Below are positions 516 to 11,245 of a stretch of DNA of 22,889 nucleotides, one piece after another (position 1 is the first letter of the stretch; every line of letters begins with the position of its first letter). The notes under the pieces are model-generated. The model made no database searches. It saw only the letters and a program-made list of their open reading frames with translations, and was not told where the DNA came from. Position numbers and translations under genes: made by a program. The stretch comes from a virus: the IMG/VR virus record IMGVR_UViG_3300020421_001565, positions 1 to 22,889 of that record; one strand, written 5' to 3'.

Positions 516-547
516 AATAAAGGTAGGACACAAGTTCTACCTTTATT
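516..547 (+). terminator. Strong 14-bp hairpin, terminator-like
   Basis: Positions 516-526 pair perfectly with 537-547. The stem continues through a G-U pair and two Watson-Crick pairs to an ACAA loop (530-533), giving a 14-bp hairpin eight bases after the preceding stop. The 3' arm ends CTTTATT followed by GTT, so the U-tract is imperfect. The 5' arm begins AATAAA, so the element could work on either strand. It may alternatively be the 5'-most helix of the structured region that follows. Confidence 0.6.
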
Positions 548-577
548 GTTGCTAGTTTATATCGGCGTATGACGGGA

Positions 578-631
578 TTGTTAGAAAAACCCTCTAGAGG
601 GTAAGATTGCAAGGGCAATCTTTTCTAACAA
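578..631 (+). other. Perfect three-way-junction inverted repeat
   Basis: The outer stem 578-586/623-631 is 9 bp, or 11 bp if 587-588 pair with 621-622 instead. It encloses a 14-base perfect palindrome (589-602, ACCCT-CTAG-AGGGT) and then a hairpin with 8-bp arms (603-610/615-622) and an AAGG loop. The three helices abut with only two unpaired bases (587-588). This follows directly from base complementarity; the function is unknown. Confidence 0.7.
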
Positions 632-645
632 CCACTTACATACAC

Positions 646-764
646 ATTATATAGGTAGTGATGACTTCAGGTAACTGCTGAAGCAGTTGCTGAAAGTCAA
701 CCCCCACCCTTCGGGGGGGGATTCCAACGGAAATCAAATCACTATCATCAGTTACCTATGTAAT
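646..764 (+). other. Four-way-junction (cloverleaf-like) structure with UUCG hairpin
   Basis: Positions 646-664 pair with 745-764 to form about 19 bp, with two G-U wobbles (650/760, 658/752) and one bulged G (751). Inside are three hairpins in a row. The first is 665-696, with arms 673-678/683-688 and loop TGAA. The second is 702-720, a C-rich arm with one bulged A at 706, a CUUCGG cap (709-714) and a G-run. The third is 722-732 (TTCC/GGAA). It has no anticodon arm, T-arm or CCA-like end, so it is not a tRNA. Confidence 0.65.
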
Positions 765-925
765 CGTACAAGTACATTCATAAATGTATTTCTATGATTG
801 CATAGCGTGGTTCTAGGTAATAAGATTCCACGGCAATCAGGTCAAGACTAAATAGGTTTGATTCCTATGCTTGGCAATTATTGTTGATCACAGAAACTGT
901 AAGAGGTCGTATGTTAGACAATAAA

Positions 926-1041
926 GGTTTTGTAGTTTGTACCTACTTGACGACTAACAAACAAGTTACAGGTTTTTGTAGTTTGTACCTACTGAACGCT
1001 GTAAAGCTACCACCTAAAAAGTGGGGAACAAACAAGCTACA
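926..1041 (+). repeat. Duplicated two-part repeat module (A-B, A'-B')
   Basis: Element A (a 20-base core at 928-947 and again at 974-993, preceded by GG and a variable T-run) is followed by element B (956-970, again at 1027-1041; 14 of 15 identical). In each copy, TGTAG-TTTGT of A can pair with ACAAA and YTACA of B around a 4-base bulge. The single B difference (T966 versus C1037) changes a G-U pair to G-C, so pairing is kept. The A copies differ by one inserted T, which shifts the reading frame between copies. This fits a nucleic-acid function better than a coding one. The copies could be origin iterons or RNA hairpins. Confidence 0.6.
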
Positions 1042-9172: not shown

Positions 9173-11245
9173 CTATGGTCTAAGTCTGTGCCAACCATAA
9201 TAACTAGTATTAACAGTTGATCCTAAATTGAAATAATAGTTATTACCATAGCCATATACTGTTCCATCAGATGTACGAACATAATGCGACCAATAACCAC
9301 TATAGTAATGTCCCATTGATATAAAATCTTCTATTGCAATATCTGTATTACCTATGTAACTAGACCCTGATGATTCTGTATGATTCCAAGGCGAAGGATA
9401 TAAGAATGCACCATAATAACTTGTAGCACTTGTTGTAGCTTGATATGGGTGTGCAGTAGAATGATATCCCCATAACCATAAACGACCTTGAGTATCTAAG
9501 CCATACCACCCCGGAGCATTATATCCACTTGTTCTCATTGGAAAACAAGCCTTCATTGTTGTTGATGGGAATACTAATGCAGTTTTACTAATTGTACCAT
9601 CAGCACTTGAGTTAACTGTATAGTGTTGATAAGTATCAAATGTAGCAGTAGAAGGTATATTAACACCTGTAGTAGCTGTTGTATTTCCTTGTAGTTGAGC
9701 GCCGTTAGCGTTATAGCCAACCATTCTAAAGCCATTACCTGTATTTGTAGCTATAGTAAGTTGATACATATCACCCGGCCCATCTGTAGTATTTGAATTA
9801 CCTGAATCTGAATTACCTAGCCAAAGCACAGCAGATGATGTTTGTGCATTACCTGTAATATTTACAGCACTAAAGTTTTCTGACCCTCCAACTTGTTGAA
9901 ACGCCGATTGATTCGTTGTATTACCAATACCTAACTGACCATTGCCATTATAACCAATGGAAAATAAATCACCATTTGCTTGTATAACATACCCTTGTGC
10001 TGATACACCTGAAGAGTAATATCCCATACAATGCAATTCAGCTTGTTCAACATTGCTTACTCCTGTTAATTGTCCAAAAGATTGACGGGCAGAACCACCA
10101 CCTACACCATTTGTATCACTACCACAATGAAATAAATTACCACTTCCATCTACAACCCAAGTGCAATACAATCCTGCAGATATCATTTTAACATTTGATA
10201 TACCTGTAATTACAGTAGGTACAGACCTTGCATTAGTTGTACCATCTCCTAATTGTCCTTGAGCATTATGACCAAATGCCATAACTCTGCCGTCGTGTAA
10301 AATAACAAATACTCTAATATTTGTACTCCATTGATAACCTCCATACCAATTTGGTACGATACAAGCAATTTCACAAGTAACACTATTGTTCGTTGCATCT
10401 GGCCCAAAGTATGGATTCTTAACCCATTGGTATCTATCTACTGTATCTCCTAATCCTAATTCACCACTACCATTTTCTCCTGTTACAAACATATTACCTT
10501 TGTTTGTTAATGCCCAAGAAGAACCACCTTTATTCCACATACGAACAAAGTATTCTCCACTCTTTAATCCACCAAATTCCATAGACATTTTACTTTTTAG
10601 CACGACATTATCTACTGCACCATTACCTACAGGTGCGGCACTATAATAGTTATACCCTCTCATTAATGGTTCGTAGTTACCATTTAAGTAGCAAAGAGTA
10701 GGTGTATTACAATGCATATCGTTTCTTGCTCTTTTTACAGGGCCACATTCAGGGTTTGGCATACCATCATAAGGAATCCAATCTGCACTTGCACCTGATT
10801 TACCATTGTATTCTGCTAACCAAGGTCTTTTACCATCTGTGCCTGTATCAGTAGTAGCTTTAAATGTATTAGCATATAAAGGAACATTACTTCCTAAAAT
10901 ATCTACTTGATAAAAAGCATCAGAGTTTGACCAAGTAATTGATGTTCCACTAGCTTTTAAAATCTGTCCTGTTGAACCTATAGGTACTCGTTGTTCAACC
11001 GATCCGTTATGTGTAAGCAAATCACCAGATGTAGTTAATGTACCTGTACCCTGTGCCATTACATTCCAATGTGTAGTATTAGTTGAGGAAGGTGCTCCTG
11101 CATTTGTTCCTGTCTTAGATGTAGTATTTACATAGACCCAAGATGAACCAGAATGCGACACTACATCATCTGCTTCGTATGTATTACTCGTAGAGAATGC
11201 ACCTCTCCAAGTAAACTTTATTTTTCCTAAATCAACTGTTGCCAT
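9173..11245 (-). CDS. RCC1-repeat tail protein (receptor-binding candidate)
   Basis: The 690-aa product starts behind AAAGGAGG (11260-11253). Residues about 10-65 resemble a small carbohydrate-binding (chitin-binding-like) module: FTWRGAFS, then YEADDVVSHSGSSWVYV, then HWNVM. Residues 90-107 carry a tail-fibre repeat (GSTGQILKASG-x-ITWSN). From about 243 onward come RCC1-type beta-propeller repeats, for example GNMFVTGENGSGELGLGD, GRVMAFGHNAQGQLGDGT and GDLFSIGYNGNGQLGIGNTT, and a last one near the C-terminus (TVYGYGNNYYFNLG). RCC1 propellers in phage tail proteins probably bind host surface structures. The middle (about 460-640) is low-complexity Thr/Asn/Gly-rich. Confidence 0.8.
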   Translation of the reverse strand: MATVDLGKIKFTWRGAFSTSNTYEADDVVSHSGSSWVYVNTTSKTGTNAGAPSSTNTTHWNVMAQGTGTLTTSGDLLTHNGSVEQRVPIGSTGQILKASGTSITWSNSDAFYQVDILGSNVPLYANTFKATTDTGTDGKRPWLAEYNGKSGASADWIPYDGMPNPECGPVKRARNDMHCNTPTLCYLNGNYEPLMRGYNYYSAAPVGNGAVDNVVLKSKMSMEFGGLKSGEYFVRMWNKGGSSWALTNKGNMFVTGENGSGELGLGDTVDRYQWVKNPYFGPDATNNSVTCEIACIVPNWYGGYQWSTNIRVFVILHDGRVMAFGHNAQGQLGDGTTNARSVPTVITGISNVKMISAGLYCTWVVDGSGNLFHCGSDTNGVGGGSARQSFGQLTGVSNVEQAELHCMGYYSSGVSAQGYVIQANGDLFSIGYNGNGQLGIGNTTNQSAFQQVGGSENFSAVNITGNAQTSSAVLWLGNSDSGNSNTTDGPGDMYQLTIATNTGNGFRMVGYNANGAQLQGNTTATTGVNIPSTATFDTYQHYTVNSSADGTISKTALVFPSTTMKACFPMRTSGYNAPGWYGLDTQGRLWLWGYHSTAHPYQATTSATSYYGAFLYPSPWNHTESSGSSYIGNTDIAIEDFISMGHYYSGYWSHYVRTSDGTVYGYGNNYYFNLGSTVNTSYYGWHRLRP

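Follow-up and report, generated by a model that had tools for sequence, protein, structure and literature searches.

Does the long intergenic stretch at positions 516–1041 of this phage genome encode a structured RNA and, if so, does that RNA act as a free molecule or as part of the message of the gene beside it? The window analysed here is the whole virus record (22,889 bases). Its tail proteins match PHROG tail families, and for the 816-aa tail protein the nearest annotated phage is Pelagibacter phage EXVC031P Hodr (55%); judged from its relatives, the phage is probably of marine origin with a Pelagibacter-like host, and Pelagibacter, host of the nearest cultured phage by this tail gene, carries great ecological weight. 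The + strand early genes include DUF932, an HTH protein, a YqaJ-like exonuclease and SSB, and the − strand (9173–11245) encodes a tail fibre-like protein of 690 aa that matches RCC1-type repeats. Taken together, our results make it very probable that a large folded RNA is encoded between two early genes of this uncultured marine phage.

On the + strand, 516–1041 folds to −175.9 kcal/mol, against −123.2 ± 6.3 kcal/mol for dinucleotide shuffles (z −8.40, 0/100 shuffles), and the − strand fold reaches z −7.27. The first-pass annotation had described ten or more helices, and more than ten local helices are indeed predicted, among them the three-way junction (about 565–650) and the C(UUCG)G hairpin (CCC-UUCG-GGG, about 707–717) that it had named. 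The 19-bp enclosing helix it had proposed survives as a long helix around 648–766, but one that takes the form of two competing pairings, the first joining UUAUAUAGGUA/UACCUAUGUAA plus UGAUGA/UCAUCA (about 17 pairs) and the second, present in the MFE structure, joining GGUAGUGAU/AUCACUAUC. The annotated limits likewise enclose structure but are shifted at both ends. The terminator-like hairpin at 516–551 (+) is homologous to one that in relatives directly follows the upstream stop codon and has the form of an ordinary intrinsic terminator, T run included; being the upstream gene's terminator, it lies outside the RNA, which therefore starts near 555, and structure runs on to about 1055. The RNA proper thus occupies about 555–1060, stopping just 5′ of the Shine-Dalgarno AAAGGAG (1061–1067, +, read from the sequence) of g106, a 106-aa protein (1074–1394, +) that has no Pfam or PHROG match and always lies 3′ of the RNA. 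Farther upstream, and also outside the RNA, are an intrinsic terminator-like hairpin that follows the upstream gene (258–288, +; a 14-bp stem followed by TTTCTTT) and, between this terminator and the RNA, a 62-aa ORF (320–508, +) without PHROG or Pfam match, whose slot in relatives holds other small ORFs or none. The small ORFs of this slot (about 55–70 aa, some membrane-like) differ by phage and resemble protein cassettes beside the RNA cassettes described below.

Relatives of the locus were gathered by scans with two downstream proteins and two DNA patterns, yielding about 26 distinct copies in marine viral contigs, all phage contigs of one clade. Two of these contigs (L116 and L117) had been assigned to MAGs, one of Euryarchaeota and one of Rhodobiaceae, probably by mis-binning, and seven pattern-scan hits (L107, L108, L110, L111 and L113–L115) were false matches resembling conserved coding DNA. 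In the relatives g106 is always the next feature 3′ of the element, and no terminator separates the two. Its core signature, CACTATCAT (740–748, +), has a single copy in the genome of 10/10 relatives, and that copy always lies in this region; being single, it led us to reject a T7-type promoter. An RNA polymerase family search gave zero matches even for its controls and is uninformative. A covariance model (R1) recovered members outside its building set (L105, L109, L112, L014 and L028; E 2e-11 to 1e-3) and yielded no convincing member in Hodr or in phages farther removed. Comparison of the region's nucleotides with 50,697 annotated phage records returned nothing except one 26-nt chance match, and no description of such an element was found in the literature searched. 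Between divergent early genes, another intergenic region also folds strongly (L005:1735–2135; L118:9602–9933, − strand), with z −9.7 in L005 and z −5.1 in phage Hodr, where a giant hairpin includes the Shine-Dalgarno; the window contig ends short of this second region.

Base pairing across these relatives bears the marks of selection. The + strand fold has z below −2 in 26/26 distinct relatives (−2.2 to −8.8, mean −4.6), and RNAalifold on 18 of them gives 31 pairs, 15 changed on both sides. Counting 30 core pairs over the same number of aligned relatives, 98.6% of cells are paired and 14 pairs show double changes, a result matched by 0/500 shuffles and compared with 26–37% pairing in slid versions; the alignment rows are related and represent few lineages, so that change counts overstate independent events. 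The strongest covarying helix is helix C (756–805, +; 756–768 with 793–805, distal part 770–778 with 783–791), in which 13/18 pairs show double changes and 98% of cells are paired, and in whose curated distal part 97/99 cells are paired (0/2000 shuffles). Kinship lowers the effective counts, but the distal part is occupied by several unrelated sequences, each with its own complement (TGCAGGAC, GACTTCA, GACTACG, TGACTACAC, GAGCAAGAC and AAGTACATT). The apical loop of helix C is an exposed CCTTCC in many relatives (L003, L105, L112, L028 and others); most phages without this loop carry TTCCTTCC just 3′ of the upstream stop codon (window about 246–253). Compensatory changes, the check that the first-pass annotation had suggested on homologous regions, are thus present in the helices, and the region is a selected structure, most likely a + strand RNA.

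The choice of strand rests on two observations. After shuffle control the + strand is favoured over the − strand in 23/26 relatives, two of the 23 lying near zero (Wilcoxon p 1e-5, inflated by kinship), and a strand-neutral count of isolated mismatches inside perfect helices gave GU 9 : AC 4, compared with 55:78 in shuffles. A curated count of G.U versus A.C (24:2) is biased, as its helices were drawn on + strand folds and a conserved A.C mismatch was omitted; this mismatch lies in helix C, where the − strand would have a G.U pair instead, and counts against the + strand. Strand preference and mismatch count together lend moderate support to a + strand RNA.

Helix C shares one of its strands with a second helix. 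The strand at 796–801 of the window (one base longer in many relatives) has an upstream partner in helix C and a downstream partner in helix S (796–801 with 833–838, spanning 796–838, +), whose loop holds cassette B, a CGTGG hairpin (806–832, +). Helix S is 97.4% paired, with double changes in 4/7 pairs. Alignment columns 48/103/154 read C-G-C, C-G-T or T-A-T, including triple changes from C-G-C to T-A-T, and at these columns as well as at 47/104/153 and 44/107/150 both alternative pairs are standard in 18/18 relatives; the minimal forms and L028 have the same shared-strand arrangement. Two mutually exclusive helices are therefore each backed by compensatory change, albeit from few independent lineages, as looked for in a bistable leader. 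Computed energies of the C and S states differ by −8.7 to +4.0 kcal/mol, the C-extended state being favoured in most relatives. Compensation on both partners of the shared strand suggests a two-state leader as the simplest reading. Sequestration of the g106 Shine-Dalgarno was considered as the output of such a switch and rejected as unlikely, because this Shine-Dalgarno is predicted to be mainly unpaired in most relatives, leaving a switch without visible output.

Immediately downstream of helix S lies a tRNA-like minihelix, here called the T-arm (841–875, +; predicted fold and covariation), in which GTCAAGACTAAATAGGTTTGATTCCTATGCTTGGC folds as a 7-bp acceptor-like stem stacked on a 5-bp T-stem closed by the T-loop UUUGAUU. 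Its inner part is nearly invariant in 20/26 distinct relatives, the other 6/26 having no T-arm, and its outer stem covaries (GTCAAG/CTTGGC, GCCAAG/CTTGGC, GTCAAG/CTTGAC and ACCAAG/CTTGGT); no 3′ CCA is encoded. In its predicted fold, the T-arm shows the feature looked for in an RNase P substrate, 12 bp of acceptor and T-stem capped by a T-loop. An alternative origin as an attP derived from a tRNA 3′ end was rejected, since no integrase was found in 10 records (positive controls included) and a search for a matching host tRNA in 385 genomes of the class returned as its sole match the phage contig itself.

Around these parts the locus is built from exchangeable pieces. Cassette I (565–650, +) is predicted to fold as the three-way junction with two hairpins; in L084 and L076 it lies in another intergenic region, about 1.4–1.7 kb upstream, and its hairpin stems vary with matched changes, in too few distinct sequences for significance. 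Cassette J (653–739, +), carried by the window, L005, L015, L023, L086 and L087, comprises the TTCAGGTAACTG..CAGTTGCTGAA hairpin, the C(UUCG)G hairpin and the 5′ strand of the enclosing helix. Cassette E (876–925, +; window, L086, L116 and L117) is a TTATTGT..ACAATAA hairpin domain, and it is followed by two copies of a frame, F, in which paired arms enclose an insert: arm GGTTTTGTAGTTTGTACC, insert G1 and arm ACAAGTTAC at 926–969 (+), then arm GGTTTTTGTAGTTTGTACC, insert G4 and arm ACAAGCTAC at 971–1040 (+). The arms of F fall into two types, and wherever a partner arm could be found (27/27 units) both arms are of one type, even though the inserts have been exchanged (16 GTA-type, 11 GGA-type, 0 mixed; one unit leaves its contig); inserts measure about 17, 42, 59 or 74 nt, and three of these four sizes occur in both arm types. 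Members differ in the pieces present, in L086 with hairpin H in place of helix S, and the minimal form (L105, L109) measures about 110 nt from core to Shine-Dalgarno, but the pieces always follow one order: CACTATCAT comes first, then helix C, then the B/C/K cassettes within or next to helix S, followed by the T-arm, E, frame F in one or two copies, hairpin H and the Shine-Dalgarno.

Two explanations dispense with an RNA function altogether. Palindromic cassettes, selfish or neutral, might simply pile up in a recombination-tolerant gap, their hairpins kept by the mode of spread; the same hairpins do occur at differing places, another intergenic region included, and cassette numbers vary. Such piling up would not account for the constant order of scaffold parts, for compensation at single positions within helices C and S, or for a T-arm and CACTATCAT that stay nearly invariant while the adjacent protein drops to about 57% identity, and we regard it as improbable. 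Alternatively, the region might encode a small protein, through the sole ORF over the core (881–1051, 56 aa, TTG start), which is in frame with the T-arm; one frame does remain open for 54–73 codons past the T-arm in 7/20 relatives. That frame stops after 9–32 codons in the other 13/20, the window's two F copies lie in different frames, and cassette lengths are not frame-keeping. With this ORF not conserved and no protein frame kept across the region in relatives, the view of the first-pass annotation that no convincing gene lies here holds, and we reject the protein-coding reading as having hardly any chance of being right.

A third explanation, raised by the first-pass annotation itself, is a replication origin or packaging site in which DNA hairpins and the single CACTATCAT are bound by phage proteins. 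The one CACTATCAT per genome, the early location, the strong structure of both strands and a nearby HTH gene that weakly matches a replication initiator all fit this proposal. The iterons it had invoked are absent, as the region contains only two-copy repeats, and the preference for the + strand, an RNA-type T-loop with a covarying stem, three-way compensation on the shared strand and freely swapped cassettes argue against it; we disfavour a DNA site and give it a low probability.

With a structured RNA preferred, it remains to ask how it would work. The best single explanation, to which we assign somewhat less than an even chance, is that the RNA forms the structured, modular 5′ leader of an early operon and has a two-state core. 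About 555–1060 would be transcribed on the + strand at the 5′ end of this operon, whose first gene is g106. The scaffold of the leader, made up of CACUAUCAUCA, helix C, helix S, in most cases the T-arm, and one or two F frames, would be fixed, and exchangeable RNA domains would be set into its loops or between one helix and the next. The leader may shift between C-extended and S-formed states via the shared strand, probably in answer to a ligand, a protein or a passing polymerase or ribosome, and would thereby set downstream gene expression in cis. We further propose that a tRNA enzyme, RNase P for example, may dock at or cleave the tRNA-like minihelix, and could thereby cut the leader or free part of it. 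Within this model, selected base pairing, position, cassette exchange and three-way compensation are observed, whereas transcription, switching, control in cis and the RNase P step are inference.

The first-pass annotation had proposed a large ornate RNA, either a relative of GOLLD and ROOL or a new class. A free-standing RNA that works like these two would be transcribed or processed out, act in trans in a large assembly or as a sponge, and bear the cassettes as peripheral domains. Covariation and the lack of a conserved frame uphold the large ornate RNA, but not its kinship with GOLLD or ROOL. A free-standing RNA would suit the size (300–600 nt, with many helices), the exposed conserved loops (T-loop and CCUUCC) and the exchange of cassettes independently of g106, and variable linkers are known from GOLLD and ROOL too (PMC12286853). 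It sits poorly with the lack of any Rfam match and of nearby tRNA genes, with a 3′ end that has no terminator and always abuts g106, and with minimal members of only about 110 nt. Given the invariable position 5′ of g106 with no terminator between, a leader is at least as likely as a free GOLLD-like RNA, which we consider possible but rather unlikely. Tentatively, and with less than an even chance, the element may represent a new, construction-kit class of phage RNA that combines a bistable core kept by three-way compensation, a tRNA-mimicking minihelix and paired arms open to interchangeable domains, each phage recombining its own version. If so, cassette exchange with matched arms would be a route for large RNAs to grow and diversify by recombination. 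To our knowledge, no function has been established for GOLLD, ROOL and similar large phage RNAs; an RNA with a minimal core of about 110 nt, natural whole-domain variation and a tie to one gene makes function testable.

Comparison with known families places the element outside all of them and near several. All 4227 Rfam models, riboswitch and leader families included, gave no match; at relaxed thresholds there were chance-level matches only, far below curated cut-offs, GOLLD and ROOL gave none at gathering, and GOLLD none up to E 5 in 200–1100. ARAGORN found no tRNA or tmRNA genes in the window and five relative loci. Our overall verdict is of a genuine structured RNA under selection, probably transcribed, that belongs to one clade of marine phages and whose class is absent from Rfam. 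With riboswitch and attenuator leaders it shares a position 5′ of a gene and mutually exclusive helices with three-way compensation, but it has no known aptamer and no terminator or Shine-Dalgarno hairpin as output, and is much larger and modular. For bacterial RNase P a hairpin made of acceptor and T-stem suffices as substrate, and several phage-induced RNAs are cut by it (PMC4919922), a precedent that motivates the processing proposed here; with such non-tRNA substrates and model hairpins the T-arm has in common a 7-bp stem stacked on a 5-bp T-stem and a 7-nt T-loop, whereas it is embedded in a long leader and encodes no CCA. Like ROOL, the element is ornate, phage-borne, several hundred nt long and provided with a variable part, there a linker; it differs in its cassette exchange and in having neither a covariance-model match nor a tRNA island. 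GOLLD is likewise large, many-helixed and phage-borne, with a conserved part plus a variable part and marine members; compared with it, the present RNA is usually shorter, has no covariance-model match, tRNA island or common sequence found, and sits as the leader of a protein gene. By size and setting GOLLD and ROOL are nonetheless the nearest known kind (PMC12286853), and while membership is rejected, the element may possibly work like them.
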